DNA from: Paenibacillus stellifer
Lineage (GTDB): Bacteria > Bacillota > Bacilli > Paenibacillales > Paenibacillaceae
Length of the DNA stretch: 64,000 nt
Reading direction: 5' to 3'
Assembly (NCBI RefSeq): GCF_000758685.1
Contig: NZ_CP009286.1
Span: 2,510,501 to 2,574,500, forward strand
Under the pieces are notes generated by a model, which saw only the letters and a list, made by a program, of their open reading frames with translations, did not search any database and was not told the origin of the DNA. A program made the translations under genes and the position numbers. Of this stretch, positions 5,586 through 28,743 are shown piece by piece (the stretch's first letter is position 1; each line of letters starts with the position of its first letter).

Positions 5586-5637
5586 TAGTAACACAACCTC
5601 CAATCCACAAGCCGCTCTCTGTGCAGTCCGGCTGCGG

Positions 5638-7167
5638 TTATGAGGGCTGTAACCGGACGCCGACGTCAGAGAAGGTGAGCGTCAGGGGCTTGTAGGTTCC
5701 CCATGTTTTGCAGCCTACGCCAAGCTGATCGACCGGCTTCAGCGCGGTTGTCCGGTACACCTCCTTCACTTCGTCCCGGCTGTATCCGTAACGGAACATA
5801 TACAGTCCGCCCGCATGCTCAAGCTCCAGAATGAAACGTTTGGCCGATAGGAGCACGGTGCTTGGAATATGATCGTCCCCGATTTTTTGCAGCACCAAGG
5901 ACTCGCCTCTGTAGATTCCCCAGAAGAACAGCTCTCCCGTCGTGCTTCGAAGCACAATGCCGCCGTGATACTCGGTCTCCGGCTCGGTCGCATCGGCGCA
6001 GACCTCGCAGGAGAACAGCCAATTGCGGCCCTTCAGGTCCTGATTCAGCAGCGCCTTGGGTGATTCGTCGTTGATCCAGGAATTGTACAGCTTCGAATTT
6101 GCGAAATGGAACAGCAGCCGGGTTCCATGTCCGGCAATCAGCTTGTCGCGGTTATTCTCGTAGATCCACAATGAACCCCGTTCCTCTATCCAGCAGGCCG
6201 CATGATGCGAGAGCCGCTCCCGCAACTCCTGCATCATCCGGCACATGTCCGCTTCTTCCTGGAATGCCGGCACGGTGATTTCGCGCCAGGAACCGGTTTT
6301 GCCGCGCTTGAAATGGACTGCATATCGGGTAATCGCCTTCCGCCATTTCTCCGCGAGCGAGTTGACCTTGTCCTTCATGCGATTGAGATCGTCGGGATCG
6401 ACACGGGAATACCGGGTCAACAGGGCGAACAATTCGGAGTAGTACACTTCCTTGTAGTTAATATGCTTCAGCAGCAAATTGGTCGACAGATCAATCGAAG
6501 GGGAAGGCGAGCTTGTCAGAGCCTCGAAGAAAGCAATCTCGACAGGAGGAGCATCGCTTCTCTGCGCAACATACAAATCCAGGCTTTCCTCGATAAAGCG
6601 CGGAATGTCGATCGCCTGCTCCGTTCTCTCCAGCGACACGATGCCGGTTTCGCTTGCGTAATTGCGCAGGTAGGACCTGTACATCTTATCTATAATAGGG
6701 TAAGGAATGACGAACTCTTCGTAGTTATGCTCATTGCTCCGCTTCTGGGTACCGTCGATTACAGAGAATAGCTCATGTTCCTTGTCATAGCCGGTAATCA
6801 GGAACATGTGCGGCCAATCAGTCGCATCGAAATGGGACGAGTAGTACAGTTCTCTGAGATTGCCGGGGACGAGTACGGGTCTTCCCGCGGCGATCTGCTC
6901 CTCAATCAAGAGAATGGGATCGCACTCCCGGAACAGGTTGAGGCGAAATCCGAGCTTCGGGAGTATTTCGCTGCAGAGATCATAGAGATCATAATCCGTA
7001 ATCAGGCATTCATGAGTGGTCAGCAATTTCAGATACATGTAGAACAGGGAGGAATGGCCGCTTGCCAGTCCTTCGACGGCAATGCCGAAGGGCTTCTCGA
7101 AGCAGGTGAGATGGGTAAGCGGGTAGTCGTCGTTGCCCGGTTTAATTTTGGTCAAGATATTTCGCAA
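5638..7167 (-). CDS. BtrH-like (C39-peptidase-fold) acyltransferase candidate with C-terminal lectin-like region
   Basis: About 509 residues. The N-terminal third has a conserved Cys in the TCFEKPFGIAVEG context, VLVPGNLRELYY and a later WPHMFLITGYDKE, resembling the papain/C39-like domain of BtrH, which transfers an ACP-bound acyl group onto an aminoglycoside in butirosin synthesis. The C-terminal third (TRLLFHFANSKLYNSWIND onward) looks like a DUF1349/concanavalin-like beta sandwich. It is transcribed divergently from the main operon and lies within the cluster. The TTG start is chosen because GAGGAG sits 10 bases upstream; an ATG at 7185 has no such site. The acyltransfer role is inference from fold resemblance and context. 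Confidence 0.6.
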   Translation of the reverse strand: MRNILTKIKPGNDDYPLTHLTCFEKPFGIAVEGLASGHSSLFYMYLKLLTTHECLITDYDLYDLCSEILPKLGFRLNLFRECDPILLIEEQIAAGRPVLVPGNLRELYYSSHFDATDWPHMFLITGYDKEHELFSVIDGTQKRSNEHNYEEFVIPYPIIDKMYRSYLRNYASETGIVSLERTEQAIDIPRFIEESLDLYVAQRSDAPPVEIAFFEALTSSPSPSIDLSTNLLLKHINYKEVYYSELFALLTRYSRVDPDDLNRMKDKVNSLAEKWRKAITRYAVHFKRGKTGSWREITVPAFQEEADMCRMMQELRERLSHHAACWIEERGSLWIYENNRDKLIAGHGTRLLFHFANSKLYNSWINDESPKALLNQDLKGRNWLFSCEVCADATEPETEYHGGIVLRSTTGELFFWGIYRGESLVLQKIGDDHIPSTVLLSAKRFILELEHAGGLYMFRYGYSRDEVKEVYRTTALKPVDQLGVGCKTWGTYKPLTLTFSDVGVRLQPS

Positions 7168-7372
7168 AAGAATCACGCTCCTCATATATGAATAAATATT
7201 ATGAATAATGTAATGATATGCAAGGTTGAGATTATGAATCCGACCAAAAAATCAGTAATGCGGGAACGCTCGGGAGAGCAGTCTGCATGAAATCGGCCCG
7301 CTGAAATTCAATCGGTCGCAGCGCCTGCAGCCAATGGATAGCGTAAATACACACTTAAGGAAGACAACCGTA

Positions 7373-7386
7373 AGAAAGCGTTCACA
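7373..7386. promoter_or_regulatory. Candidate CcpA-binding cre site in the divergent promoter region
   Basis: AGAAAGCGTTCACA matches the consensus TGWAANCGNTNWCA at all but the first base. It lies between the divergent cluster genes and about 135 bp upstream of the operon's strong -35 box. A CcpA gene is present at 61.8 kb. The rest of the 7168-7771 gap holds the promoter and leader described separately. Confidence 0.45.
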
Positions 7387-7519
7387 AAATGCATACGTTT
7401 GCATTTGACTATAGTTTATCTTCATATTTCGGCATATTTCTCGTGATTTCAGGCGATTTCATGCTCTATTTTCATGCAATGCTTTGCACGAATCGTCCAT
7501 TTATTTTGGATTCCATGTA

Positions 7520-7547
7520 TTGACATATCATCTGTTGGAAGTATAAT
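7520..7547 (+). promoter_or_regulatory. Strong consensus SigA promoter of the biosynthetic operon
   Basis: Perfect TTGACA and perfect TATAAT separated by 16 bases. The predicted transcript starts near 7554, giving a leader of roughly 220 bases before the first large gene. Confidence 0.75.
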
Positions 7548-7619
7548 ACATTACATACGCAGGAGGCAATGAACAAAAATTGAAGGTACGAAACCGTTTG
7601 GTCCCCTGAAGGAAACAAG

Positions 7620-7703
7620 ATGAAATCGGCTTTGATCCGGCAAACTCAAATCTGCCTCTCAGTGTATATCCATGCATTTTTACTGAAAATTTTGTCGGAT
7701 TGA
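7620..7703 (+). CDS. Possible 27-residue leader peptide or small precursor
   Basis: The ORF begins MKSALIRQTQ and ends AFLLKILSD, with GAAGGA six bases upstream, inside the operon leader. A four-codon mini-ORF (MNKN, 7569-7583) with a perfect AGGAGG precedes it. Conservation cannot be judged here. It could be a regulatory leader peptide, a tiny product or chance. Confidence 0.3.
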   Translation: MKSALIRQTQICLSVYIHAFLLKILSD

Positions 7704-7717
7704 TTTGTCGGATTGAT
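7692..7717 (+). repeat. Tandem 13-bp repeat at the end of the leader ORF
   Basis: Two perfect direct copies of TTGTCGGATTGAT. The first carries the stop codon of the 27-codon ORF. Confidence 0.7.
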
Positions 7718-7771
7718 ATGTGAAATTTGTAACTACCGGGCCTCCCGGCCCCTATACGTAAGGAGGGCATT

Positions 7772-8878
7772 GTGAAGAACGAATCCTTGGTGCTGGATTA
7801 TAACCTATGCGAGACAACAATTCGCATAACATCGGATAATAATGGTGTTGGACGGGTTGTCCGCGACTATTTCTATCCCTATGTCTCCGAGGCACTTCCG
7901 GAGAACGTCCGGCCGGAGGTGACGGTCTCCATTCATTTGGACGATACGCTCTTTCAACGGCTTCAAGACAATTACAATACCAGAATCAACGAATGGGTCA
8001 TTTCGTTGTGCCGGACGGAGAAGGGCACTTACCGTCTGATCGAGTATGAGTATCAAGAAGAAGGACGCCTGCTGAAGGCCCAGAAGACTGATTTCATCGT
8101 GATCGAGAAGGGCGGCGAGTACGAGGTCTTCGTGAAATCCGATTATTTGTCAAACGGCAAGCCGAACGACGATCTGTACCATCTGTTCGAGCACGTAATC
8201 AGCAAGAAAGCAGCCGCCAAGGGCTATATCCTGCTGCATGCCTCGTCGGTCGCCATCTGCGGCAAGGCCTTTCTTTTTATCGGGAAGAAACGCACAGGCA
8301 AGACCACAACATTCTTCGAGGCCTGCATCCGGAACGGAGCCGTGCCCCTCTCGGTGGACAAGACCTATGTGAAAGCTGTAGGATCCGGGCTGCTCATGGC
8401 CTGCCATCCGTCGCCGCTCCGGGTTCTGGCGGGCACGCTGAGAAAATATGAAGGCGGTTTCATTGACATCGTGCCGGAGCAGTACCGCTGCGCTTCATCC
8501 GAAGAACTGTGGAAGGGCAACGGCGACGGCAAAGTGAGGATGGGTCTTCACCGCCTGGAGGAGTTCATCGGACGGAGAGCGGCAACGTCGGCTTCCGTCG
8601 CTTGCCTGGTATTCCCCTATATCCATTATGACCGTCCGGACCGGTTGACGCCGTTAACCGACCCTGACCACATCGCCGTCGCTCTGAGAGAGAACCTGTT
8701 CACTCCGCATAATCCGGAAGAGGATTGGTGGTCGCGTATCGGCCTGGAAGAGATTGACCGCATCGCCGAAATGACGGACCGGACAATACTCAGAATGTCG
8801 GCCGCCCGTTCCTATCGGCTCGAATCGGCGGACGCCATCAGTTTGCTTATCAGCGAGGCCGCGTCGGAGATATGTTGA
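7772..8878 (+). CDS. HPr-kinase-like P-loop kinase
   Basis: 368 residues from a GTG start with AAGGAGGG upstream. The C-terminal half has LLHASSVAICGKAFLFIGKK running into RTGKTTT (Walker A), then LSVDKTYV, the pattern of HprK C-terminal catalytic domains. The N-terminal half is unlike HprK and unrecognised. Homologues of this type occur in RiPP clusters, where one (PadeK of the paeninodin cluster) phosphorylates a precursor peptide. Here it is first in the operon and its stop overlaps the decarboxylase start. A role as kinase of a pathway intermediate or product is inferred. Confidence 0.7.
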   Translation: MKNESLVLDYNLCETTIRITSDNNGVGRVVRDYFYPYVSEALPENVRPEVTVSIHLDDTLFQRLQDNYNTRINEWVISLCRTEKGTYRLIEYEYQEEGRLLKAQKTDFIVIEKGGEYEVFVKSDYLSNGKPNDDLYHLFEHVISKKAAAKGYILLHASSVAICGKAFLFIGKKRTGKTTTFFEACIRNGAVPLSVDKTYVKAVGSGLLMACHPSPLRVLAGTLRKYEGGFIDIVPEQYRCASSEELWKGNGDGKVRMGLHRLEEFIGRRAATSASVACLVFPYIHYDRPDRLTPLTDPDHIAVALRENLFTPHNPEEDWWSRIGLEEIDRIAEMTDRTILRMSAARSYRLESADAISLLISEAASEIC

Positions 8879-10107
8879 ACACCTTATACGTTCAGAACTA
8901 TTCGGTGAAGGACGAGCTGTACCGTGACATTTGCTCATGGGTGAGCCGGAGCGCGCGGGGGGCGGTGCTGCTCTACGATTTGAATAAAGTCGGGGCGCTG
9001 TATGAGGCGCTGACTGTTATGCTTCCCGGGGTGAGGAATCTCTTCGCGGTCAAATCGGCGCCTTGTCCCGAGCTGCTGACCTTTCTCGATTCATTGGGCT
9101 GCGGGTTCGAGATTGCGGGCGAGGGCGAGTTGGCATTGCTGCAAAGGCTTGGAATCGGCACATCGGCCTGCCTGTTCACGAATCCGATCAATAGCCCGGA
9201 GCTTATCGAACGATGCATCCGAAGCGGTGTGAAGACCTTCGTGGCGGACAATCTCTTCGAGCTTCACAAGTATGAGCCGTACCGCGGGCAATGCGAGCTG
9301 GTGATCCGGATCGCCATACGCAACCATGCGACCAGGATGGACCTCTCCAAGAAGTTCGGCTGCGCGCCGGAAGAGGCGTCCGCCCTACTGGAAGCTGCCG
9401 GAAGCCGCGGCCTTACCGTCAAGGGCCTAAGCTTCCATGTCGGGTCCAATGTGACCTCTTCCGAGAAGTATGTCTATGCGCTGAATGTATGCCATGAGCT
9501 GATCCGCGAGCAGCGGCATCACGATCTTCGGTTGCTGGACATCGGGGGCGGATTCCCGATATTTACCGATGAATCGCCGGAGGACATGACGGAGTTCTTC
9601 GCTCCCGTCAGGGAAGCGCTGGCCCGGTTCGAAGGGATGGACATCGTATCGGAGCCGGGAAGATTCCTGTCCGGGCCCGGAGGCATTCTCGCAGTGAGGG
9701 TAATGGGCAAAAATGTGAAGAACGGCAAGCGGTGGTACTACCTGAATGAAGGGGTGTACGGCGCCTTCTCGGGCAAGGTATTCGATTATGCCAGCTATCC
9801 GGTCTCGGTCTTCGGATCGGGGGAGGAACGGATCTATGAAAGCGTGCTGGCGGGCCCCACCTGCGACAGCTTCGACATTATCGAAGAGGATATTTTGTTG
9901 CCGGAGCTTGAGATCGGAGATGTGCTGCTGGTTCATAATATCGGAGCCTACTCCTGTGCGTCGATGACCGGATTCAACGGCGTTGAGCCATGCACAGTAC
10001 GGGCCAGCGATGATCCGGACAACCCTGTCATCAGGCATTCCCGTAAGGATACACCCATTATGAGGAGGATTTACAGTGAGCAACTACATGCACGTAGAGG
10101 ATTATGA
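8872..10107 (+). CDS. PLP-dependent fold-III (alanine-racemase fold) decarboxylase, ODC/DAPDC/BtrK-like
   Basis: 411 residues. Features in order: AVKSAPCP with PLP Lys61, HVGSN (189-193), GGGFP (225-229), EPGR (261-264) and GPTCDSFD with catalytic Cys331, then EIGDVLLVHNIGAYS. These are the full signature of eukaryotic-type ornithine and diaminopimelate decarboxylases. In butirosin and related pathways BtrK of this family decarboxylates glutamate while it is bound to an ACP, and two ACPs are encoded in this operon. A free amino acid is the alternative substrate. Its 3' end overlaps the radical SAM gene by 32 bases. Confidence 0.88.
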   Translation: MLNTLYVQNYSVKDELYRDICSWVSRSARGAVLLYDLNKVGALYEALTVMLPGVRNLFAVKSAPCPELLTFLDSLGCGFEIAGEGELALLQRLGIGTSACLFTNPINSPELIERCIRSGVKTFVADNLFELHKYEPYRGQCELVIRIAIRNHATRMDLSKKFGCAPEEASALLEAAGSRGLTVKGLSFHVGSNVTSSEKYVYALNVCHELIREQRHHDLRLLDIGGGFPIFTDESPEDMTEFFAPVREALARFEGMDIVSEPGRFLSGPGGILAVRVMGKNVKNGKRWYYLNEGVYGAFSGKVFDYASYPVSVFGSGEERIYESVLAGPTCDSFDIIEEDILLPELEIGDVLLVHNIGAYSCASMTGFNGVEPCTVRASDDPDNPVIRHSRKDTPIMRRIYSEQLHARRGL

Positions 10108-11134
10108 CGATTACAAGTATATTTTCGTAGAGACCACGGCCAATTGCAACCTGAGATGCACATATTGCTACTATCACAAGGAAGAGAAGCTGCCGGAATA
10201 TCGGATTGAAGACCTGGTGCAGAGCTTCAGCCGGATCGGCAAGCTCATTGTCTGCTTCCTCGGCGGGGAGCCCTTCAAAAACTCCAGGTACATGGAACAG
10301 ATTATGAGCGACGAGACGCTGAACCGGAATCAGATGCTCTACGCCAGCGTGACCAATGGCACCCAGTTCCGGAATATGGACCCTGAATTTCTGGGCAGGT
10401 TCACCTTCCACCACTTGTCCACCGACGGGGTAGGCGAGCACCACGACGAGTTCAGGGGCAAAGGTGTCTACGATCAAGTTATCGATAATATCAAGTATCT
10501 GCGGCAGTATTCCGATGCGGGGGTTGTCGCCAGAATGACTATTTCTTCGCCGGATCAGATTCTGGATATTCCCGAGATGTCCAAGCATTTCGATGCCGTA
10601 TACTGGCAGCTTAACAATACGCGAACCCAGTTGTCCGATACGTTCATCGCCAAATACAACGAGAACCTCGGAACGCTGTTCCAGTATTGGAAGGAGCATC
10701 TATATGACATGAAGCATTTCACCATCGCCCCCTTCATCGGAATGTGCCATCTCATTCTGACCGGCGGCATGGAGAAGCCCGATCTGATCTGCGGCGCGGG
10801 CAGCAAGAATCTGAACATCAGCATCAGCGGCGATGTGTACCCTTGTCCGGAGAGCTCGCACCGGCTGTCGGAGAAAGAGAGAATCGGCACGGTCGATAAC
10901 TTTGATTTCAAACCATATCCGCTCAAGAACCGATGTCTGGAATGCGATATCGTCAAGTTCTGCGGCGGAAGATGCGCGATGACGGACGACGATCTGTATT
11001 GCGACGGCGTGAAAGAGCTCTATCGGCTCTCCGCGGACTATATTGCCGGACTGGATGCACAGGAGATCGAGAAATTGAAGGAGCTTATCGACTATCAGAA
11101 AGGGCTGGCCTATACGGCGGAGATTATTCCCTGA
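10076..11134 (+). CDS. Radical SAM enzyme with SPASM/twitch domain
   Basis: 352 residues from a GTG with AGGAGG upstream. The AdoMet cluster motif is C24-xxx-C28-xx-C31 (NCNLRCTYCYYH), followed by GGEP. The C-terminus carries a SPASM-like Cys set: ICGAG, YPCPES, CLECDIVKFCGGRC and a last YCDG, for auxiliary iron-sulfur clusters. SPASM enzymes modify peptides or small molecules (for example BtrN, anSME, PqqE). The substrate is unknown; no clear precursor peptide is adjacent, so a small-molecule substrate such as a sugar alcohol (BtrN-like dehydrogenation) is possible. Confidence 0.9.
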   Translation: MSNYMHVEDYDDYKYIFVETTANCNLRCTYCYYHKEEKLPEYRIEDLVQSFSRIGKLIVCFLGGEPFKNSRYMEQIMSDETLNRNQMLYASVTNGTQFRNMDPEFLGRFTFHHLSTDGVGEHHDEFRGKGVYDQVIDNIKYLRQYSDAGVVARMTISSPDQILDIPEMSKHFDAVYWQLNNTRTQLSDTFIAKYNENLGTLFQYWKEHLYDMKHFTIAPFIGMCHLILTGGMEKPDLICGAGSKNLNISISGDVYPCPESSHRLSEKERIGTVDNFDFKPYPLKNRCLECDIVKFCGGRCAMTDDDLYCDGVKELYRLSADYIAGLDAQEIEKLKELIDYQKGLAYTAEIIP

Positions 11135-11156
11135 ACCAGGAAGGCGGGTAAGGCAA

Positions 11157-12137
11157 GTGAATAAATGGTTAACCGGCATTGCGGAAGCCCGGGACCCGCA
11201 GATGCGCGAGGCGCTGGACAGCAGGCTGCACAAGCAGCAAGAACTGTTCGCGGCCGCATCAACGAAGAGAGATTCTACAATCGGCAACAAGCTGCTGGTC
11301 AGAGGAAGCCTGGAATATTCCAATATATGTGCGAATTCCTGTTCATTCTGCGGAATGACGGTCAGGAACCGTGAATTGAACCGGTACACCGTATCGGAGA
11401 GCGATGCCAGGAAGGCGATATCCCTGATGGCCCGAATGGGCATCAAGCAGCTTCATATCGTGTCGGGCGAAGACCGGAGCCAGCCGATCCGGCCGGTCGT
11501 CGAAATGATTCAATACGCCGGAGAACTGGGCATCCATACAACCGTTGTGCTGGGGGAGAGACTGGAACGGGAATACAGGGAACTGTACGACGCCGGCGCC
11601 TCCAGGTATATCCTGAAGATCGAAACGTCGAACCCCGAAGTATATTACCGGAGCAAGGGAAGGAAGTCGCTCAAAGACCGGATCGACCACTTGATGAGGC
11701 TGCGGGACATCGGCTTCAAGATCGGGACGGGTGTCATTGTGGGCTTGCCAGGCACCACTCTTGAGGATGTTGTGAATGACATCAAGCTAATCAGGGAGAT
11801 TGACCCCGATATGGCGAGCGTCAGCGTATTCAGCCCTAACAAGCAGTCCGATTACAGGGACTATCCTCCGGGCGATGTTGACATCGCTCTGAATCTGATC
11901 GCGTTGCTGAGGCTTGTTCTGCGGGATGATGTACTGATCCCCATTGGCACTTCCTTCGCGCAGCGGCAAGCGGAAGGCTTGCTTGCAGGGGCCAATGTGG
12001 TATCCCACCACAGCACGCCCGAGCAGCATATCGACGACTTCTCGGCATACCGGGCAAGCTCCAGACTGAAGACGGGCTATGACCGGATCGTGTCATTGGC
12101 CGACTCTGCGAATATGGCGGTATCGGAATATATTTAA
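11157..12137 (+). CDS. Radical SAM enzyme, BioB/HydE/PylB-like
   Basis: 326 residues. SNICANSCSFCGM holds C58, C62 and C65, followed by HIVSGEDRSQPI, KIETSNPEVYY, GTGVIVGLPGTTLEDVVNDI and a C-terminal PIGTSFAQRQAEGLLAGANV. This matches the TIM-barrel biotin synthase/HydE/PylB group and lacks a SPASM domain. Members rearrange carbon skeletons or insert sulfur. It follows the SPASM enzyme by 22 bases. With a decarboxylase and ATP-grasp ligase nearby, a PylB-like amino-acid mutase reaction is one option; this is speculation. Confidence 0.85.
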   Translation: MNKWLTGIAEARDPQMREALDSRLHKQQELFAAASTKRDSTIGNKLLVRGSLEYSNICANSCSFCGMTVRNRELNRYTVSESDARKAISLMARMGIKQLHIVSGEDRSQPIRPVVEMIQYAGELGIHTTVVLGERLEREYRELYDAGASRYILKIETSNPEVYYRSKGRKSLKDRIDHLMRLRDIGFKIGTGVIVGLPGTTLEDVVNDIKLIREIDPDMASVSVFSPNKQSDYRDYPPGDVDIALNLIALLRLVLRDDVLIPIGTSFAQRQAEGLLAGANVVSHHSTPEQHIDDFSAYRASSRLKTGYDRIVSLADSANMAVSEYI

Positions 12138-12158
12138 TTCAGGGTTCGGAGGCATATG

Positions 12159-13208
12159 ATGCGGAAAAAGACGGTATTAGTGGTAAATGCGGGCGATGTC
12201 ACCGGGATCAATTTCTGTCGCTCTTTACAGGAAACGAAGGACTTCCACATCATCGGCGTCGAGTCCGGCCGGGAGGATTATTTCATGATCGCGGCGGATC
12301 AGAAGTATCTGGTTCCGGCCTGGGACGACCCTTCGTACATCAGCGTTCTGAACCGGATCATCGAACGGCATGATGTGGACTTGCTGTATGCGGCGGATAC
12401 GGGCAATGAGCTGTTGACCATCGCAAAGAACCGGCATCGGATCAAATGCAGAACGTTCCTGCCCGCCCAGGAAGATATTGAGGTCACGGAAGATAAATGG
12501 GCCACGTACAACAGGCTGAAGGCTTCGGGCGTTCCGGTTCCGGCAACCGTGCTGGTGGATTCCGAATCCGTACTGGAGGACTTCATTTTACAATACCGCG
12601 AGGTGTGGTTAAGAAGAATCTATGGAAGCGGAGGCGCCTGCTCGCTCCCTACAGACAGCTTCGAGCTAGCGGTGAACTGGGTGCGGCATCATGACGGCTG
12701 GGGCAAGTTCATCGTGTCGGAGAAGCTGTCCAAGAGGACGGGAACCTGGATCGGGGTATGGCTCGAGGGAGAGCTTCAGGTATGCCAACTGCGCGAGCGG
12801 CTGTACTGGAAATACGCGAACCTTGCTCCTTCGGGAGTAACTGGGATCACGGGGGACCAGAAGACCTTCTGGGACGAGAACTTGCATGAGCTGGCGATGA
12901 AATGCGTAAGATCGACCGTGAAGAAACCACACGGCATTATGTGCGTCGATTTCACCTGGGGGTTCGACGGCGTTCCGTATCCGACCGAAATCCAGGCGAG
13001 CCGGTTCTATTCCTCGATCTACTTCCTGACTAGGTCCGGCCTCAACCTCGCGGAAATATATTGCAATCTTGCGCTTGGCGGGAGCCGGTACGAGCAGCCT
13101 GTAATCAATCCGATCCGGGAGGAGTTCCACTGGATCAAGAGCGTGGATTGTACGCCGGTGCTGCTTACGAAGAGCGAGTACGACGGGGTCTCGCGTTATG
13201 GGAGTTAG
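12159..13208 (+). CDS. ATP-grasp ligase
   Basis: About 349 residues. An N-terminal pre-ATP-grasp segment (VLVVNAGDVTGINFCRSLQ) is followed by DKWATYNRLKASGVPVP and VWLRRIYGSGGACSLP (ATP-binding loop). Further on are VSEKLSKRTGTWIGVWLEG, MCVDFTWGFDG and PTEIQASRF, where acidic and Asn-like positions would bind magnesium. Such enzymes couple a carboxylate to an amine or thiol through an acyl phosphate; BtrJ of butirosin, which loads glutamate onto an ACP, is a functional precedent. The second ATG is chosen because GGAGG is better spaced. The end overlaps the next gene by 11 bases. Confidence 0.85.
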   Translation: MRKKTVLVVNAGDVTGINFCRSLQETKDFHIIGVESGREDYFMIAADQKYLVPAWDDPSYISVLNRIIERHDVDLLYAADTGNELLTIAKNRHRIKCRTFLPAQEDIEVTEDKWATYNRLKASGVPVPATVLVDSESVLEDFILQYREVWLRRIYGSGGACSLPTDSFELAVNWVRHHDGWGKFIVSEKLSKRTGTWIGVWLEGELQVCQLRERLYWKYANLAPSGVTGITGDQKTFWDENLHELAMKCVRSTVKKPHGIMCVDFTWGFDGVPYPTEIQASRFYSSIYFLTRSGLNLAEIYCNLALGGSRYEQPVINPIREEFHWIKSVDCTPVLLTKSEYDGVSRYGS

Positions 13209-14996: not shown

Positions 14997-15021
14997 AGGA
15001 TACGATACAAGGAGGGCAGCC

Positions 15022-16185: not shown

Positions 16186-16223
16186 TCCGGACGAGTGTCT
16201 GTCCTTAGCGGAGGTGTGAAGGC

Positions 16224-16466: not shown

Positions 16467-16468
16467 CC

Positions 16469-19120: not shown

Positions 19121-19124
19121 TCGG

Positions 19125-20138: not shown

Positions 20139-20150
20139 AAACGCCGGGGG

Positions 20151-21668
20151 ATGGAGATGGGTACAATTTTTGCGTTCTTGGCGGATCGCGCAAGCGGGCA
20201 ACCGGACCGCACCTATATCGAAGAGCATCATCGCAGCTGGAGTTATCGGGAGGTGTTCGATCTGGCAACCGGCCTGGCTGGCCATCTGGCCCGGCTCGGG
20301 ATCGGTGAAGACGACAGAGTCTTGCTATGGATGGACAATTCGGCCGAGTACATCATCGCCTACTTTGCGGTGCTGCGCGCCGGGGCGATCGCCGTTCCGG
20401 TCAGCCCCGCCGCAAGCGGCGAGCATCTGCGGTTCATTCTGGATGATGTAGCCCCCAAGGCGATTCTCACTCATGCAAGAAGCGCGGGAAGAGTGAGCGG
20501 ACCGGCAAGCGAACGGCATGCGGTGGTCTTGCCAGTTGACGAATGGGTGAAGGCTGCAACCGCAGCGCAAAGACATATGCCGGCTGCGGCAGGTCTTCCT
20601 TCCGCCGAGCCTGAACGGGTGGCGCTAATTCTGTACACCTCGGGCACAACCCGAAACCCGAAGGGCGTCATGCTGACGCACCGCAACCTGGAGGCCAATA
20701 CGGAATCGATACTGGCTTATCTCCCCATACAGCCGGAAGACTCGCTGCTGGTTGCCATTCCTTTCTACTATGCTTACGGCAATTCTCTGATTCTGACGCA
20801 GACGAAGGCGGGCGGGACGTTATACCTGGACAACCGGGCGGCTTTTCCGGTGAAGATTCTGGAGCGACTGCGGGACGGGAACATGAGCGGCTTCTCGACT
20901 GTCGGCTCGTATCTGCATCTTCTTCTGAAGCAGGATACGGTATCCGATCTTGATTTTGCCGGACTCAAGTATCTGACTGTTGCGGGGGAAGCCTGCTCTG
21001 CCGAGGATGTGGACAGATTGAGCGCTCTGGCGCCCGGTCTCAGCATCTATATGATGTACGGCCAGACCGAGGCTGCGGCGAGATTAAGCTATCTGGAGCC
21101 ACCCTTGCTGCCGCTGAAGAGAGGCTCGATCGGAAGAGCGATTCCCGGAGTCGAGCTTCGGGTGGTGAACGATGACGGGATGGAGGTCCGGCCCGGCGAG
21201 ATTGGCGAGATTATCGCTTCCGGCCCCAATATTATGAAGGGGTACTGGAACAACCGGATCGAGACAGAGGCGGCGGTCAGGGACGGGTGGCTGCACACCG
21301 GGGATCTCGCAACAGCCGATTCCGAAGGGTTCCTGTATATAAAAGGAAGAAAGAATGACATCATTAAATATTTGGGCCACCGAATCAGTCCCCTCGAAGT
21401 GGAGACGGCGATCAATCAATGTGAAGGCGTATTGGAGTGCGCGGTCGTCGAATCGGAGATTCATCAAGAGAAACAAATTGTAGCTTATGTGGTCCGTCAG
21501 GACGAGAACTGCGACGAGAACAGAATCGACCGAACTGTGCGAAAGATTTTGCCTCCTTATAAAAGACCCCATGCCTACCGGTTCATCGGTTCGCTGCCGC
21601 GCACCGCAAACGGTAAGATCAAGCGAAGCGAATTAAGAAGCTCTGAGGTTCATCCAAACTACCAGTAA
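20151..21668 (+). CDS. Acyl-AMP ligase / acyl-CoA synthetase (ANL family)
   Basis: 505 residues. ILYTSGTTRNPKGVM at about 162-174 is the phosphate loop, MMYGQTEAA the adenylate motif, GWLHTGDLA and IKGRKNDIIKYLGHRI the hinge, and RTANGKIKRSE carries the catalytic C-terminal Lys. No carrier or condensation domain is fused. It likely activates a carboxylic acid and loads CoA or one of the operon's ACPs. Substrate cannot be deduced by eye. Confidence 0.9.
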   Translation: MEMGTIFAFLADRASGQPDRTYIEEHHRSWSYREVFDLATGLAGHLARLGIGEDDRVLLWMDNSAEYIIAYFAVLRAGAIAVPVSPAASGEHLRFILDDVAPKAILTHARSAGRVSGPASERHAVVLPVDEWVKAATAAQRHMPAAAGLPSAEPERVALILYTSGTTRNPKGVMLTHRNLEANTESILAYLPIQPEDSLLVAIPFYYAYGNSLILTQTKAGGTLYLDNRAAFPVKILERLRDGNMSGFSTVGSYLHLLLKQDTVSDLDFAGLKYLTVAGEACSAEDVDRLSALAPGLSIYMMYGQTEAAARLSYLEPPLLPLKRGSIGRAIPGVELRVVNDDGMEVRPGEIGEIIASGPNIMKGYWNNRIETEAAVRDGWLHTGDLATADSEGFLYIKGRKNDIIKYLGHRISPLEVETAINQCEGVLECAVVESEIHQEKQIVAYVVRQDENCDENRIDRTVRKILPPYKRPHAYRFIGSLPRTANGKIKRSELRSSEVHPNYQ

Positions 21669-21683
21669 CGGAGACAAGGGATT

Positions 21684-23576
21684 ATGTGCGGAATTGCCGG
21701 TATATTCAATGCCAGTGGAGTAGACGCAACGACGTTGCATGTGATGACGGAGAGTCTCGGGCACCGCGGACCGGATGATATCGGCTTCTTCCATGACGGT
21801 CAGATTGGCCTGGGCCATGTCCGGCTGAGCATCCTGGACCCTGAACACGGCAAGCAGCCGGTTGCGAATGAGGATGGGTCCGTAATTGTGATATTTAACG
21901 GCGAAATCTTCAATTATTTAGCACTGAGGGACATGCTGATGAGGTGCGGACATGCCGTCTTGAACGATTCCGATACCGCTATATTGCCGCATATGTACGA
22001 AGAATACGGTCTTGATATGTTCAGCCGGCTGAACGGACAGTTCGCCATCGCAATCTGGGACCGGAGACAGAGCACCCTGATTCTGGCGAGGGACAGAATG
22101 GGCGAGAAGCCCCTCTATTACGCGCGGGAAGGAAACAGGCTCTGCTTCGCCTCGGAATGCAAAGCGATTCTGAAGAGCGGATTCGTGAAGCCGGTCATCT
22201 CTCCCAGGGCAATGAGGCAAGTATTCACGTACTGGTCCACTCTGGGCGATACGAGCGTATTCGAGCATATCTCTTCCGTCCCTCCGGGTTCGATGCTGGT
22301 CTGTCAGAAGGGAGAGGTGCGGATTGCGCCGTATTGGTCGTTCACGTATCCGGCCGGCTGCACGAAGGAGACCTGCAGTCTTGAGGATTACATAGAGGAA
22401 CTGGATGTCAGGCTGACTCGGGCGATTGAGCGGCGCTTGTTGTCCGATGTGCCGGTTTCCTTCTATTTAAGCGGAGGCCTCGATTCGAGCCTGATTCTCG
22501 CCATCGCATCGAGACGCTTGAGCCGCAGGCCCGACACCTTCTCTCTCACGTTCGAGGATCGTCATTTCGACGAATCGCGATATCAGAGGGCGATGCTGGA
22601 TACGCTTGAGACGAATCATCATGAAGTCCGTTATTCCATGGACGATCTGCCCGGGGTCATCCGGGAGACGGTCCGTCATACGGAGACGCCGCTCGTGCGC
22701 ACCGGGGCATTCCCCATGTTCGTGCTGGCGCGGCTGGTGGGCAGCCGGGGCAGAAAGGTGGTGCTGTCGGGGGAAGGCTCGGACGAGCTGTTCGGCGGTT
22801 ACGATCTGTTCCGTGAAGTGAAGATCCGGACGTTCGTCAGCCGCAACCCGGATTCGAACTTCCGAAGCGCGTTGTACAAGAGAGTGAATCAGTTCGTGAA
22901 CGGGCTGAACGACCAGCCTGTCCGGAGCCTGGCCATGTACTATGGCAGCTCGTCCGCGGATTCCGTTCTGGGTTCGCATGTATCGCGATGGCGGTTGTTC
23001 GACAGCAGTCTGCGTCTCTTCTCGGCGGATTACCGGTATGAGATGGCCCAAGGCGGGAAGTTTCAGGATGTGGAAGGCTTTCTTCCGCCGGGATTTGCGG
23101 AATGGACGCCGATCCGGAGGGCGCAATTTCTGGAATTGCTTATTTTCCTGCCGAATTATTTGTTGTCCTCCCAGGGAGACCGGGTCGCGATGGCCGCCGG
23201 GGTGGAATGCCGATACCCGTTCCTGGACAGCGATATGCTGGATTATGCAATGAACTTGCCGGATTCGCTGAAGCTGAAAGGTCTTGACGAGAAGTATATT
23301 CTGAAGAAGCTGGCCCGGAAATACGTTCCCGGGGAGATTATTAACCGGACCAAGTTCCCTTACCGGGCGCCGGTTGATCTTGCGCGGCTGCTGAATGACG
23401 AATATATCCGATATGTTCTGGAGCCGGACACGATCAGGAGGTTCGGCATCTTCGATCCGGAGTCCGCCGGCAAATACATCGCGTTCCTGTCGAGCAAAGA
23501 GCGTGTCAACGAGAAGGATATTATGCGGTTCATGGGGATTCTGACCACGCAAGTATTGGCAGAGCAATTCATGTGA
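21684..23576 (+). CDS. asnB: Asparagine-synthetase-type glutamine amidotransferase
   Basis: 630 residues. MCGIAGIF has the Ntn nucleophile Cys2, and FNGEIFNYLALRD, DSDTAILPHMYEEYG and RMGEKPLYYA complete the glutaminase half. SFYLSGGLDSSLILAIA is the synthetase PP-loop and LSGEGSDELFGGYD the second signature. The enzyme is complete. In oxytetracycline synthesis a homologue (OxyD) provides an amidated malonyl starter for a type II PKS, a relevant precedent with KS/CLF in the same operon. Lasso peptide cyclases also belong here. Housekeeping asparagine synthesis is less likely given the operon. Confidence 0.88.
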   Translation: MCGIAGIFNASGVDATTLHVMTESLGHRGPDDIGFFHDGQIGLGHVRLSILDPEHGKQPVANEDGSVIVIFNGEIFNYLALRDMLMRCGHAVLNDSDTAILPHMYEEYGLDMFSRLNGQFAIAIWDRRQSTLILARDRMGEKPLYYAREGNRLCFASECKAILKSGFVKPVISPRAMRQVFTYWSTLGDTSVFEHISSVPPGSMLVCQKGEVRIAPYWSFTYPAGCTKETCSLEDYIEELDVRLTRAIERRLLSDVPVSFYLSGGLDSSLILAIASRRLSRRPDTFSLTFEDRHFDESRYQRAMLDTLETNHHEVRYSMDDLPGVIRETVRHTETPLVRTGAFPMFVLARLVGSRGRKVVLSGEGSDELFGGYDLFREVKIRTFVSRNPDSNFRSALYKRVNQFVNGLNDQPVRSLAMYYGSSSADSVLGSHVSRWRLFDSSLRLFSADYRYEMAQGGKFQDVEGFLPPGFAEWTPIRRAQFLELLIFLPNYLLSSQGDRVAMAAGVECRYPFLDSDMLDYAMNLPDSLKLKGLDEKYILKKLARKYVPGEIINRTKFPYRAPVDLARLLNDEYIRYVLEPDTIRRFGIFDPESAGKYIAFLSSKERVNEKDIMRFMGILTTQVLAEQFM

Positions 23577-23610
23577 GTGAATTAACAAAAAAAGTTAGGA
23601 GGAGAGCCTG

Positions 23611-24063
23611 TTGTCGGCAAGGAAAGCCAGTTTGGTCCATTTGTATATGAATCTCTGCGTCAGAACGCCCATCCTTGTAATCGCCCTGTCTGCGGTGATA
23701 TTCGCGATTCTGTATAACCTGGCCGTCGTCTCGACTATGGAGGTCTATTCTTCCCACAAGGGGGAACTCGTCTCCGGCAAGAACGGGATCATTCGGGTGC
23801 AAGCCGCGATTGACGGACTCGAGAGCGCGGAGGTCGGTCTTCATGACCGGGCTTACTGGTATTATGACAAGAATCGGGCAGTGTATCAGGCCGAAATCAT
23901 AGACGTTGTGAAGACGGAGGGCCGGAACGTTGTTGTGCTTGAGACCCGGTCCGGGGATGTGGCGGACGCCGATCGCAGGGGGAACGGTGATGCGGTAACG
24001 GTGGAGCTTGCTACTGGTGAAGAGAGACTGCTGGACCGTCTGATGGCGAAGGGGGAAAAGTGA
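23611..24063 (+). CDS. Small single-pass membrane protein ahead of the exporters
   Basis: 150 residues from a TTG with AGGAGG upstream. A hydrophobic segment at about 19-42 (ILVIALSAVIFAILYNLAVV) is followed by a soluble beta-rich domain ending in LLDRLMAKGEK. The layout recalls a shortened HlyD-type adaptor with a beta-barrel, but no family is certain. One base separates it from the first ABC gene, so a transport-accessory role is likely by context. Confidence 0.6.
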   Translation: MSARKASLVHLYMNLCVRTPILVIALSAVIFAILYNLAVVSTMEVYSSHKGELVSGKNGIIRVQAAIDGLESAEVGLHDRAYWYYDKNRAVYQAEIIDVVKTEGRNVVVLETRSGDVADADRRGNGDAVTVELATGEERLLDRLMAKGEK

Positions 24064-24064
24064 T

Positions 24065-25810
24065 ATGGCGCAGATGCGTAACCGGGACCAACTGAGGGTA
24101 ATTTGGGGATTTGCCCGAAAATATAAGTTCAGCTTCGTCTCTCTGTACCTGTGTCTGGCGATCGAGGCCTTGCTCGCGATGCTTACGCCGCTGATTATCG
24201 GTCTCTTGGTCGATGAGGTCGTTTACTACAGGAACATCGAGTTCTTCTGGAGAATTGCGCTCGTGTTCGGGATATGCATCGCGTTCATGAGCGTTCTGTA
24301 CACGATACATCCGAATATATGGCAATATTTGATGTCCCGGTTTATTTTCGATATCAAGCTGAAACTGTTTGACCAGATTACTTACGCGAAGGCGTCATTT
24401 CTCTCGGAAGCCAAGACCGGCGATCTGATATCACGGAATGTCCATGATGCTTCGGAGTTCATGAATATTATCCAGCGGAATATGTTCCATTTCTTCAACG
24501 GCATTGTCCAGGTTGCGCTGGCCCTGATCTTCGTCTGGATCTACAGCTGGAAGGCCGCCATGCTTATGCTGGTCGTCATTCCGCTCTCGACGCTGTTGTC
24601 CCTGCATTTTGGAGGCAGAGCCAGGAAGCGTTCGGCGGAAGCGCGGGCCGCATACGGCGGTTACATCAGCTGGATGGTGGAATGGCTGAAGGGGCTGCGG
24701 GAGATCCGGCTGCTGGCGGCGGAGCGGAATTCGAAGGTTGCTTTTGTCCGGCATTACAAAGAGATGGTTCTGATTAAAATTAAAACGTCGATCATTCAGC
24801 TCAAGGCGACTCTGTTCATTGAAGGCATTGCGCTTCTCTCGAATTTGAGCCTATACAGCCTGTCCGGGTTTCTTGTGCTGCGGGGTGAAATCACGCTAGG
24901 AGCCTTCATTGCCATGGCGGAATATTTCGCGACGGCGAATCTCAAGTTGGCCGACCTGGTGAACAACAATGTGGACAGGCAGCTTAGACAAGCGGCCGTG
25001 GACCGGGTGTGCGAGCTGCTTGAAGTGGATACGGAGAAGAATGATGAAGCCAACAGGCCCCTGCTGGTGCCGCAAGGAAATATCCGGTTCCGGAATGTGT
25101 CATTCTCGTACAATGACCGGGACCCCGTACTGAAGAATATCAATCTGGATATCCAGGAGGGCCAGCATCTGTCGATCGTGGGTGCGAGCGGGTCGGGCAA
25201 GACGACGCTGATGAATTTGCTGCTCCGGCTGTATTCGGCCGGCTCCGGGGAGATTCTGGTGGACGGAAGCGATATTGGCCGCTGCACGCTGAAGTCGATT
25301 CGCAAGAATATCGGAATTGTCCAGCAGGAGACGCTGTTATTTAATGAGAGCATCCGCAGCAATCTCTCTCTCGGCAACCGGCATTGTACGGACGCGGAGA
25401 TTATAGAGGCGTGCGACAAGGCGGATATCGGCGGGTTCATCCGGCAGCTTCCCGCAGGTCTGGATACGATTGTCGGCCATGGTGGAATCGACTTGTCCGG
25501 AGGACAGAAGCAGCGGCTGGGCATTGCCCGGATTTATCTCAAGGACCCCCGGATTCTCGTCTTCGACGAAGCGACCTCGGCACTGGATTTCGAAACAGAG
25601 AAGTCCGTTCATCAAGCATGGGATACGGTCAGCCGGGGCAGAACGACCATCACCATCGCCCATCGGCTGACGACGATTCTCAAGAGCGACAAGGTTGCGG
25701 TACTGCATGAGGGCGAGATTGTGTCGTGCGCCAACCATGCGGAATTGCTTGAGACCTGCGCCCATTATCAAAAGCTGTTCAAATCTCAATATATCGGACA
25801 GGGGGCGTAA
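24065..25810 (+). CDS. ABC exporter, fused membrane and ATPase domains (1)
   Basis: 581 residues. A six-helix exporter domain in the first 310 residues (SFVSLYLCLAIEALLAMLTP, then MLMLVVIPLSTLLS) precedes the ATPase with VGASGSGKTTL (Walker A), GIVQQETLLF, LSGGQKQRLGIARI (signature), ILVFDEATSALD (Walker B) and AHRLTT. No peptidase C39 domain is attached. With the next gene it probably forms a heterodimeric exporter for the product. Confidence 0.92.
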   Translation: MAQMRNRDQLRVIWGFARKYKFSFVSLYLCLAIEALLAMLTPLIIGLLVDEVVYYRNIEFFWRIALVFGICIAFMSVLYTIHPNIWQYLMSRFIFDIKLKLFDQITYAKASFLSEAKTGDLISRNVHDASEFMNIIQRNMFHFFNGIVQVALALIFVWIYSWKAAMLMLVVIPLSTLLSLHFGGRARKRSAEARAAYGGYISWMVEWLKGLREIRLLAAERNSKVAFVRHYKEMVLIKIKTSIIQLKATLFIEGIALLSNLSLYSLSGFLVLRGEITLGAFIAMAEYFATANLKLADLVNNNVDRQLRQAAVDRVCELLEVDTEKNDEANRPLLVPQGNIRFRNVSFSYNDRDPVLKNINLDIQEGQHLSIVGASGSGKTTLMNLLLRLYSAGSGEILVDGSDIGRCTLKSIRKNIGIVQQETLLFNESIRSNLSLGNRHCTDAEIIEACDKADIGGFIRQLPAGLDTIVGHGGIDLSGGQKQRLGIARIYLKDPRILVFDEATSALDFETEKSVHQAWDTVSRGRTTITIAHRLTTILKSDKVAVLHEGEIVSCANHAELLETCAHYQKLFKSQYIGQGA

Positions 25811-25812
25811 AG

Positions 25813-27630
25813 GTGTCAGGCATAATGAAAGAGAGATTCGCGATTCTCAAGCGGATTATTCCGTTTGCCAGAGGGCTGGAGAGGTACTTTGCCATCTTGT
25901 TCATATCCAGTCTGGTGCTGATGTTCGCAGGGATGCTGACGCCGGTGTTCTATAAAATACTGGTCGACGACGTGATCCTGAACCGGGAGGTGCATGCGCT
26001 CTGGTACGTGGTTGCTGGATATGCGGCGGTGTACCTCATCACCTCGGGCATGAAGACGGCCGGGAATTACGCCTCGAACCGTTTTTTGAACAAGCTTGTT
26101 TTCAATATGCGGCTCAGAATCTGGAGCAATTATCTGAAGATGCCGCTGACGAGATACAACCGGTATCAGGTCGGCGATCTGAAGATGCGGATGGACGACG
26201 ACACGAACAAAATCGAAGAGTTCATCAATCAGCAAACGTACAGCTATATCATCAACTTGCTGATTATTGTCTCCTACGGCGGCGTGTTGCTGTATCTCAG
26301 TTGGAAGCTGGCTCTGTTCTCCGTCATTATGGTACCCGTTACCTTCTTCATCGGCCATGTGCTGGGCAGGAACGAGAACGCGCTCAACGAGCAGCGGAGG
26401 GAGGTCTGGGCGAGGAAGGATGACTGGATGCTGAGCAGTCTTCAAGGCTGGAAGGAGGTCAAGGCGCTCTGCATTGAGAACAGGGAACGGAGAATCTTCA
26501 CTCAATATCATCACAGAAGCGGGATTCTCGATGCACGGTGGATTAACTATTGGCTGCTCCACGATTTGATTCTGCCGGCGATCAAGGATGAATTTATAAT
26601 GAAGTTCGCGCTGTATCTGGCGGGCAGCCTTCTGGTAATGAACGGCGATTTTACAATCGGCAGCTTGCTGATCTTCATGAAATTCTATTCAGGATTCTAT
26701 GAAAGCGTCAATAGGGTCAATGAGTGCAATATTAGCCTGAATAACGACAAGCCGCTGTTTCATCGGATATTCGATGTCATTCATGACAAGGAAGGCGAGC
26801 AGTCAGAACAGGGAGAGCAGTCAGAACAGCCAGAACGGGAAGTACACGCAGAACGGGGAGGACGGGGAGAACGGGCCGGTCAATTGGCGCAAACCCCGTT
26901 TCAGGGAGAAGTTAGGCTCAAGAATGTTACATTCGGGTATGAGAACGGCACCCGCCATATTCTGGAGGATGTCTCGTTAACGATCACTCCCGGCGAGAAG
27001 GTCGCTATTGTCGGCAAGAGCGGCGCGGGCAAAAGCACACTTGCCAAGCTGCTGCTCGGAATCGAACGGTGCCGGGCGGGGCAAGTCCTGTATGACCATA
27101 CCGACATCGACAGCTTGCATGAGCCGCTGCTCCACCGGAATGTCGGTGCGGTGATGCAGGACAGCATTCTGTTCAACATGTCGATCAAGGATAATCTGAA
27201 GCTGGCGAGAAGCCGGGCGACCGATGAGGAAATTGTGGAGGCTTGCCGGAAGGCCCATATCGACGAGTTCATTGACACTCTTCCGGATCAATATGATACG
27301 ATCATCGGAGAGAGAGGCGTGAAGCTGTCGGGCGGACAAAGGCAGCGTCTTGCCATTGCCCGGGTGTTCCTGAGCAGAGCGAACATATGGATTCTGGACG
27401 AGGCGACCTCCTCGCTCGACCATGAATCCGAACGAATGATCCATGATGTGATCCGGAACGCAACTGGCGACAAGACGATCATTCTGATTGCCCACCGGTT
27501 GTCGTCGCTGCTGCTGGCCGACCGGGTCATTGTTCTGAAGGATGGAAGAATCGCGGCAAGCGGGCATCATACCGAGCTTCTGGACCGCAATGAAGCGTAT
27601 GATGAATTGTTCAAAGAGCAGTATGCGTAA
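25813..27630 (+). CDS. ABC exporter, fused membrane and ATPase domains (2)
   Basis: 605 residues. Membrane domain to about residue 315; ATPase with VGKSGAGKSTLAKLL, VMQDSILFNM, LSGGQRQRLAIARV, IWILDEATSSLD and AHRLSS. Between the domains lies a charged low-complexity linker rich in Glu, Gln, Gly and Arg that the partner lacks. The start may be the GTG given or the ATG at 25825; both have imperfect sites. Translationally close to its partner (two bases). Confidence 0.9.
   Translation: MSGIMKERFAILKRIIPFARGLERYFAILFISSLVLMFAGMLTPVFYKILVDDVILNREVHALWYVVAGYAAVYLITSGMKTAGNYASNRFLNKLVFNMRLRIWSNYLKMPLTRYNRYQVGDLKMRMDDDTNKIEEFINQQTYSYIINLLIIVSYGGVLLYLSWKLALFSVIMVPVTFFIGHVLGRNENALNEQRREVWARKDDWMLSSLQGWKEVKALCIENRERRIFTQYHHRSGILDARWINYWLLHDLILPAIKDEFIMKFALYLAGSLLVMNGDFTIGSLLIFMKFYSGFYESVNRVNECNISLNNDKPLFHRIFDVIHDKEGEQSEQGEQSEQPEREVHAERGGRGERAGQLAQTPFQGEVRLKNVTFGYENGTRHILEDVSLTITPGEKVAIVGKSGAGKSTLAKLLLGIERCRAGQVLYDHTDIDSLHEPLLHRNVGAVMQDSILFNMSIKDNLKLARSRATDEEIVEACRKAHIDEFIDTLPDQYDTIIGERGVKLSGGQRQRLAIARVFLSRANIWILDEATSSLDHESERMIHDVIRNATGDKTIILIAHRLSSLLLADRVIVLKDGRIAASGHHTELLDRNEAYDELFKEQYA
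26797..26878 (+). repeat. Low-complexity coding repeat in the second ABC exporter
   Basis: Two perfect 15-bp direct copies (GAGCAGTCAGAACAG at 26797 and 26815) followed by degenerate CAGAACGG-like units. They encode the Glu/Gln/Ser then Glu/Arg/Gly linker. The array could change length by slippage in whole codons. Confidence 0.75.
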
Positions 27631-27666
27631 ATCGACAACCGCTTGGGCATAGCTTGGAGACTGTTT

Positions 27667-28515
27667 ATGGAAAGGGGGCGTCCTCGCTTGGGCGAGTATA
27701 TTGATCTGCATGTGCATACCCACTACTCGGACGGGTCCATGTCTCCATCGGAAATTATTCACTACGCCCGATCCCGCCATGTGGGGACCATTGCGATCAC
27801 GGATCATGATACGATTGCGGGCGTAAGAGAAGGGATGGAAGAAGGCGGGCGCTGCGGGGTAAGAGTCATCCCGGGAATCGAGCTGAGCGCGGACTATGAG
27901 GAAGAGATGCATATTCTCGGTTACTTCATCGACATCAATTCCGAGCATCTGATTCGGTATATGGAAGAGATCAGAAAGCATCGCACGCAGGAGACGATCC
28001 GGCTGCTGAGGACATTGAAGAAGCTGGGCATGCCCGTTCCATATGAGGAGTTGCTTAACTCAAAGGGCGTGATTGACATAAACAGCATCATTCACGCCTT
28101 GATTAAGCTCGGATACGCGAAGGACCGGAGGGATGCTGTCGGGAGTTATCTGGGACAAGGCCGGCCGGCGTACATCAAGACGTATAAATGGCTGCCGGCG
28201 GATTGCATTAATCTGATTAAGGCGGCGGGCGGCATTGCGGTTCTTGCGCACCCGGTGCGTCTCAACAAGAGCATGGAGGAGCTAAAGCCTGTACTGGCCG
28301 AGCTTATCCGGTATGGGCTGGACGGTATCGAATGCTATCACTCCGAGCATACGGACGATTGGGCAGCCTATTGTCTCCGATTGGCCAAAGAGAACGGGCT
28401 GCGAATAACGGGAGGAAGCGATTTTCACGGAAGCCACAGACCGGGCATTGATCTCGCTCACGGAAAATTGCGAGCCGGGATGCTCGCCTGGGAACGGGCA
28501 GAGGAGAGCAGATGA
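27667..28515 (+). CDS. PHP-domain phosphoesterase
   Basis: About 282 residues. The PHP metal motifs are all present: DLHVHTHYSDGSMSP, AITDHDTIAG, IPGIELSADY, VLAHPVR, GIECYHSEHT and GGSDFHG. This is the YciV/TrpH-like nucleotide or sugar phosphate phosphatase layout. ATG 27667 has GGAG seven bases upstream; TTG 27688, with AAAGGGGG upstream, is an equally good start closer to the family pattern. At the end of an operon that begins with kinases, it may remove a protecting or activating phosphate, or recycle pAp-type by-products. Confidence 0.85.
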   Translation: MERGRPRLGEYIDLHVHTHYSDGSMSPSEIIHYARSRHVGTIAITDHDTIAGVREGMEEGGRCGVRVIPGIELSADYEEEMHILGYFIDINSEHLIRYMEEIRKHRTQETIRLLRTLKKLGMPVPYEELLNSKGVIDINSIIHALIKLGYAKDRRDAVGSYLGQGRPAYIKTYKWLPADCINLIKAAGGIAVLAHPVRLNKSMEELKPVLAELIRYGLDGIECYHSEHTDDWAAYCLRLAKENGLRITGGSDFHGSHRPGIDLAHGKLRAGMLAWERAEESR

Positions 28516-28743
28516 TGCGGGTGAGAGCGGTGATCATCGCCGGCCGACTGAATGAATCGGACGTCCGTGATGCGCTTCGGCTGGTACCGCTTCCGGTGCA
28601 GACTCGGTGTCCCTCTTCAAGAGGTGGAAATCGCCCAATCGGCATATGGCAAACCTTACTACGTCAATCCCGGCCAGGGCTGCTTCAACATCTCTATCCA
28701 TATCGATAAGCGCCAGATGTTTCTCCAAAGAAAATTAATGTGA
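28512..28743 (+). pseudogene. Sfp-type phosphopantetheinyl transferase remnant
   Basis: The start overlaps the PHP stop by four bases and reads MMRVRAVIIAGRLNESD, a plausible family N-terminus. The family core then continues in another frame (from about 28570): WYRFRCRLGVPLQEVEIAQS, then AYGKPYY and CFNIS, the GKP and FNIS(H) motifs. Everything beyond, including the acidic metal triad and WxxKEA motif, is missing and the frame ends at 28743. So it is both frameshifted and 3'-truncated. An intact copy would have activated the two ACPs. Confidence 0.65.

Follow-up and report, generated by a model that had tools for sequence, protein, structure and literature searches.

A Paenibacillus stellifer operon joining a ketosynthase and its inactive partner to carrier-protein, PP-loop and radical SAM enzymes

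A 64,000-nt stretch of the Paenibacillus stellifer genome (contig NZ_CP009286.1, positions 2,510,501 to 2,574,500), hereafter the window, was found to carry an operon of 19 genes on the + strand (nt 7772–28515). It joins three enzyme groups usually found apart: a type II polyketide synthase (PKS) pair, a PP-loop enzyme possibly acting on carrier-bound chains, and a HydE-like radical S-adenosylmethionine (SAM) enzyme. Built on two free-standing acyl carrier proteins (ACPs), it is an orphan biosynthetic cluster whose product is apparently a small molecule for export; the full mechanism proposed below is tentative, and we place it a little under an even chance. An initial annotation of the region had proposed a hybrid of a ketosynthase/chain-length factor (KS/CLF) pair with carrier-protein and amino-acid chemistry, which our analysis supports. 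As it had also stated, no described equivalent pathway was found, in our case in the open-licence literature.

Gene content, operon layout, catalytic motifs and the recurrence of two modules are direct observations. The genome is a single contig of 5.66 Mb. The operon shows many overlaps and a largest gap of 38 bp, the intergenic distances as annotated ranging from −59 to +38 bp; the nucleotidyltransferase probably starts at 15022 instead of 14938, which would abolish the −59 overlap. All enzyme types named in the initial annotation were recovered by open reading frame (ORF) listing and Pfam and NCBIfam scans. Its single long operon stands for the 19 contiguous + strand genes, but the gene at 5638–7185 is divergent, on the − strand, and lies outside, and the right end falls at 28515, not at 28743. 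The operon has a GC content of 55.3%, compared with 49.8% for the left flank and 53.1% across the right part of the window. The KS pair, the carrier proteins and the PP-loop enzyme are encoded together:

16224–16466, + strand, ACP1 (PF00550 47.5 bits; candidate phosphopantetheine Ser S36 in GINS)
16469–17629, + strand, ketosynthase (PF02801 126.9, PF00109 56.9 bits; C139, H272, K304 and H309 kept)
17619–18842, + strand, catalytically dead KS partner, CLF-like, 407 aa (PF02801 53.5, PF00109 44.5 bits)
18839–19120, + strand, ACP2 (PF00550 34.7 bits; candidate Ser S46 in ILDS)
19125–20138, + strand, PP-loop (AANH) enzyme (Zn-type tetracysteine, CxxC plus a third Cys; TIGR03573 121.3; fold)

By residues and adjacency, the KS and partner genes match a type II PKS KS/CLF pair, in which a KS with the Cys-His-His and Lys residues adjoins a partner lacking that set. 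Where the KS carries C139, H272, K304 and H309, the residues of the partner are S, N, K and E, which bears out the active KS and dead partner of the initial annotation. The four near relatives of the partner (52–54% identity) show S or G at the first of these places and N, K and E at the others; counting the window's own copy, five of five proteins of the partner family have lost the Cys and both His. The predicted model of the partner has a KS fold (pTM 0.91, TM-score 0.87 to 2alm), and a Foldseek search with it returned FabF-type folds among the 50 matches listed. Two KS-like chains of the solved entry 9s5h match the KS (191.6 bits, second in rank) and the partner (98.4, third); no paper on this entry was found in the open-licence literature.

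Such dead partners are very rare. Among the best 7993 candidates scored from about 5.8 billion proteins, only the window's own copy and the four near relatives were found; the search gave 43 proteins in all at E≤1e-10, those beyond the near relatives being weaker KS-family proteins. It also returned metagenome proteins of 712–741 aa belonging to KS families (P0006–P0012), and P0006, the only one of them inspected, appears to combine an active and a dead KS in one chain, as a fused KS/CLF would. Of the 150 genomes in the relatives set, counting this one, 149 had a match to the window KS at E≤1e-40, the best non-own match reaching 202.1 bits versus 856.1 for self. The listed matches there share 38–44% identity within residues 113–385, which is FabF-level, and therefore none of the 150 genomes showed a further copy of this KS. 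Primary fatty acid synthesis is ruled out for the pair, in line with the initial annotation, because the KS scores 253.5 on the FabF model, far under the cut-off of 493.75, and because other KS genes exist elsewhere in the genome: two free-standing ones (414- and 413-aa frames), besides four KS domains in larger frames. Two genes of the phosphopantetheinyl transferase (PPTase) family are also present in the genome.

The PP-loop enzyme carries D72, S73, C152, C155 and C273, invariant in 24 of 24 aligned proteins. In the part of PMC6772006 available to us, CtaC, the carrier-protein thioamide synthetase of closthioamide, is reported to use D77, S78, C154, C157 and C284 on a carrier-bound chain; judged by the described residues, the cysteine triad pattern is the same. 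The pattern does not decide for sulfur insertion: a check of two sugar amidotransferases at family level found the triad in one, the other (L047) having F, F and D at these places. Sulfur and nitrogen chemistry are therefore both kept in view, and the three cysteines were rejected as proof of thioamide chemistry. The enzyme had been annotated as amidotransferase-like; its PP-loop family membership stands, while its chemistry may be of the thioamide as well as of the amide type.

A total of 2057 proteins match the PP-loop enzyme at E≤1e-15, of which the best 120 were inspected. Its relatives and those of the KS and partner lie on contigs of equal size in three of four cases. In overlapping draws of genomes, a match was found in 1 of 246 (G684, 37% identity) and in 1 of 200 (own); further overlapping draws, with no positive control inside, gave none in 341 genomes at E 1e-100 and none in 236 at E 1e-40. 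Among 72,556 plasmid records there was one match (28%), and viral contigs held three partial ones (29–35%). In a 4.1 Mb genome (L046, nt 487–16453), a PP-loop relative adjoins an acyl-AMP ligase, and an ACP2-like protein is also encoded there, with NAD synthase-like, acyl-CoA dehydrogenase, KS III-like, electron transfer flavoprotein and thiamine diphosphate enzymes; by its genes, this looks like another uncharacterised cluster.

Upstream of these genes lie two radical SAM enzymes and an ATP-grasp ligase:

10076–11134, + strand, SPASM-type radical SAM enzyme (PF04055 48 bits; TIGR04084 163.5, cut-off 225)
11157–12137, + strand, HydE-like radical SAM enzyme (TIGR03956 182.7, cut-off 254.6; CX3CX2C)
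12156–13208, + strand, ATP-grasp ligase (Pfam/NCBIfam scans; 47% identical to the L029 copy)

The HydE-like enzyme falls below the cut-off of HydE and also below that of PylB (101.2, cut-off 348.2). The HydE proper of this genome (477.1 bits, above cut-off) is 34% identical to it and sits away from the operon, with HydG (699.8 bits) and HydF (560.4 bits), for which reason a hydrogenase maturase role was rejected for the operon enzyme; those HydF, HydG and HydE genes (L059, nt 5711–9636) are the [FeFe] hydrogenase maturation genes. In a 68-row tree the HydE-like protein falls within a 21-row clade (99/96), and the genome's own HydE falls outside it.

A scan of genome contigs gave five relatives of the HydE-like protein (L029–L033); of the four placed in the tree, L029 (46% identity) is inside the clade and L030–L032 are outside. 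L029 is a cluster of Eubacteriaceae bacterium B88_13_EV_BP (nt 238–14053), its left end cut by the contig start. Besides the HydE-like protein, it shares with the operon the ATP-grasp ligase (47% identity), AMP-ligase (34%), HprK-like protein (32%), short-chain dehydrogenase/reductase (SDR, 32%), NTP_transf_5 (28%) and APH (22%) proteins, and also holds an ACP and a BtrH_N protein (PF14399 39.9, above cut-off). Its extras are a second HydE-like gene (34%) beside the first, an aminotransferase, two further SDRs and a histidine-phosphatase family gene. In the 17.3 kb inspected, starting at the contig edge, no match was found to the KS, CLF, PP-loop, AsnB, decarboxylase, SPASM or exporter genes; because the region is cut there, the missing KS/CLF is no proof of absence. 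The ATP-grasp ligase occurs in 2 of 398 genomes of the class (own included). Among 295 genomes from the order of L029, one has the HydE-like protein at E≤1e-70, namely that of L029, whose two HydE-type matches in all are both in this cluster. From these sequence counts, chance hardly explains why two rare families meet within a single short locus in distant bacteria, and the pathway appears to be built from two or more modules that also occur separately, one pairing KS/CLF with PP-loop, another the HydE-like gene with ATP-grasp and phospho genes. HydE-type matches came from 10 of the 72,556 plasmid records, all under 60% identity (31–34% or less), and neither CLF nor ATP-grasp matched any; viral contigs gave no HydE-like relative.

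The remaining features are a promoter, other ligation and transfer enzymes, phospho genes and export genes:

5638–7185, − strand, BtrH-like acyl/aminoacyl transferase candidate, C39-like fold by family kin (PF14399 26.1, Pfam cut-off 29.7)
7520–7547, + strand, predicted sigma-70-like promoter TTGACA-N16-TATAAT (pattern match)
7772–8878, + strand, HprK-like P-loop kinase (P-loop GKKRTGKT; 32% to L029:12373-13500)
8872–10107, + strand, pyridoxal phosphate (PLP) fold-III decarboxylase, lysine/ornithine type (PF02784/PF00278; 2plj 272.8 bits)
13198–14076, + strand, APH-family kinase (PF01636 66.3 bits)
14073–14996, + strand, SDR, epimerase/dehydratase family (PF01370 68.8 bits)
14938–16185, + strand, NTP_transf_5 nucleotidyltransferase, start probably 15022 (PF14907 118.1 bits)
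20151–21668, + strand, acyl-AMP ligase (PF00501 269.8 bits)
21684–23576, + strand, AsnB-type glutamine amidotransferase/ligase (PF00733 267.8; TIGR01536 447.6, above cut-off 267.1)
23611–24063, + strand, small protein with one transmembrane segment read from the sequence, exporter accessory candidate (no family match)
24065–25810, + strand, ABC exporter 1 (PF00664, PF00005)
25813–27630, + strand, ABC exporter 2 (PF00664, PF00005)
27643–28515, + strand, PHP-domain phosphoesterase (PF02811 49.1 bits; NF041577 175.2, cut-off 400)

The BtrK-type aminoacyl-ACP decarboxylation suggested at first was rejected, the decarboxylase matching BtrK (2j66) at 69.5 bits versus 272.8 for the Lys/Orn decarboxylase 2plj. 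An alpha-aminoacyl starter loaded by the AMP-ligase is unlikely because the Asp of motif A4, which we take to mark alpha-amino-acid adenylation domains, is missing from it as judged by eye. For the ATP-grasp ligase no solved-structure relative was found. The HprK-like label rests on the P-loop, the 32% identity to the L029 protein and the weak HprK_rel_B match of the latter (40.2 bits, cut-off 200); the protein at 7772–8878 had no Pfam match and one very weak NCBIfam match. The kinase, nucleotidyltransferase and ABC genes may serve masking and export. The sugar or cyclitol partner proposed for the product is unsupported, because the nucleotidyltransferase belongs to PF14907, by name no sugar-nucleotide family, and the PP-loop enzyme misses the cut-off of the WbuX sugar amidotransferase model (121.3 versus 203.2).

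To the left of the BtrH-like gene, a remnant of an IS4/5-type transposase (PF13340, nt 5141–5548) marks a possible border of the cluster. To the right of the operon lie an alpha/beta hydrolase and an IclR regulator, the latter in a segment (nt 29742–33802) that also holds a carbon-nitrogen hydrolase fragment, a RidA-like protein and an FAD aromatic-ring hydroxylase, and resembles a small degradation operon.

In the scheme that we favour, we infer every substrate, the order of the steps and the product. The AMP-ligase would load a carboxylic acid onto one ACP, and the KS with its dead partner would lengthen the chain by one or a few malonyl units carried on the other. The PP-loop enzyme would then use ATP to activate a carbonyl on the carrier-bound chain and insert sulfur (our first choice, as in CtaC) or nitrogen. 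An amino acid or diamine may be made and joined on by the HydE-like enzyme together with the Lys/Orn-type decarboxylase and the ATP-grasp ligase; AsnB would form an amide, and the BtrH-like enzyme would transfer or release the chain. The HprK-like and APH-like kinases and the nucleotidyltransferase would keep the product masked inside the cell, the ABC pair would export it, and the PHP enzyme would strip its phosphate. This is held to be the best explanation because of the operon layout, the active KS with a dead partner, the ACPs with candidate Ser and the two PPTase-family genes; because of the equal-sized contigs of the PP-loop and KS/partner relatives; because PP-loop, AMP-ligase and ACP2-like genes are co-located among acyl-CoA-type enzymes in L046, and the HydE-like, ATP-grasp, HprK-like, APH, SDR, NTP_transf_5, AMP-ligase, ACP and BtrH-like genes in L029; and because the invariant PP-loop residues and the cta gene set offer a parallel.

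Several other explanations were weighed. A pathway of the same kind in which the PP-loop enzyme works like its relatives among the sugar amidotransferases, using ammonia supplied by AsnB or a host glutaminase and forming an amide, amidine or nitrile, is unlikely, though worth serious attention. The TIGR03573 cut-off is not reached, L047 argues that the triad is dispensable in the sugar amidotransferase family, yet it is invariant here, and the L046 context is one of acyl, not sugar, chemistry. It is rather improbable that the KS and partner perform one elongation and a cyclisation, like AmcF-AmcG of cispentacin, to yield a small ring and no chain. AmcF and AmcB are indeed the closest specific models (KS 208.0, ACP2 41.5), and the N-terminal part of the KS is short like that of AmcF, since KS residue 120 meets AmcF position 110 and FabF position 143. 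However, both scores lie under their cut-offs (325 and 80), the general FabF model outscores AmcF on the KS (253.5), and the partner has a full KS fold, whereas AmcG is described, in the available part of PMC10698177, as lacking CLF motifs and part of the CLF secondary structure.

A RiPP- or lasso-like pathway with ACP-bound decoration, in which the HprK-like kinase, nucleotidyltransferase, AsnB, SPASM enzyme and NHLM-like exporters act on a peptide, is very improbable. Pairs of kinase and nucleotidyltransferase do tailor lasso peptides, according to the available part of PMC9266682, and the best model of ABC exporter 2 is TIGR03796 (356.5, cut-off 853.3). Another genome, G243, has AsnB, HprK-like (32.1 bits, cut-off 33.3), NTP_transf_5 and ABC genes in a row (L040, nt 839–7408), lasso-like by content and adjoining a capsule-type locus. 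Against this, the operon AsnB is above the asparagine synthase cut-off and far below that of the lasso cyclase (205.7 versus 525), the annotated genes include no B1/B2 lasso proteins, and no precursor was evident among small ORFs in the gaps examined by eye, not exhaustively. A cassette decorating a cell-surface polysaccharide, of the XrtA/PEP-CTERM kind, seems more doubtful still. XrtA-associated models rank second or third for the ligase (292.7), decarboxylase (101.6) and amidotransferase (371), and an ATP-grasp relative (35%) lies in the capsule-type locus of G243; but the three scores are below their cut-offs (592.35, 478.45 and 816.9), and the 20 genes scanned gave no glycosyltransferase, polymerase or flippase family match, no exosortase search having been made.

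An extension of the favoured scheme, which we consider fairly improbable, would be a first merger of KS/CLF and carrier-protein thioamide chemistry. In it, a short polyketide would be thioamidated on its ACP, and the amino acid or diamine that caps it would come from a new HydE-like radical SAM family, through a PylB-like rearrangement of a lysine/ornithine-type amino acid. If so, the 21-row clade would be a HydE-type branch recruited to secondary metabolism, and it offers a testable case of a hydrogenase-maturation enzyme type entering such metabolism. The function of the operon, once solved, could assign a role to close kin among the 2057 PP-loop matches.

Four known systems may be compared with the operon. 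Closthioamide (cta) of Ruminiclostridium cellulolyticum, as far as described in the part of PMC6772006 available, shares with it two carrier proteins, an ATP-grasp enzyme, an acyl ligase, a decarboxylase, a separate (peptidyl) transferase and, compared by description, an AANH PP-loop enzyme whose CxxC and third Cys are similarly spaced; KS/CLF, radical SAM, AsnB, kinase and nucleotidyltransferase genes are not named in that part. With cispentacin AmcF-AmcG/AmcB (PMC10698177, in the part available) the operon has in common a KS with a short N-terminal part, a dead partner, an ACP and an adenylating ligase, but its KS and ACP2 score below the AmcF and AmcB cut-offs, its partner is CLF-like and of full length, and no other amc genes were recognised in the operon. 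Butirosin BtrI/J/K/H likewise combines an ACP, an ATP-grasp ligase, a fold-III PLP decarboxylase and a BtrH_N-like protein, whereas here the decarboxylase is of the Lys/Orn type, the BtrH_N match is below cut-off, and KS/CLF, PP-loop and radical enzymes are added. Finally, HydE and PylB share with the HydE-like enzyme the radical SAM family and the CX3CX2C motif, from both of which it differs by its sub-cut-off scores and its separate 21-row clade.

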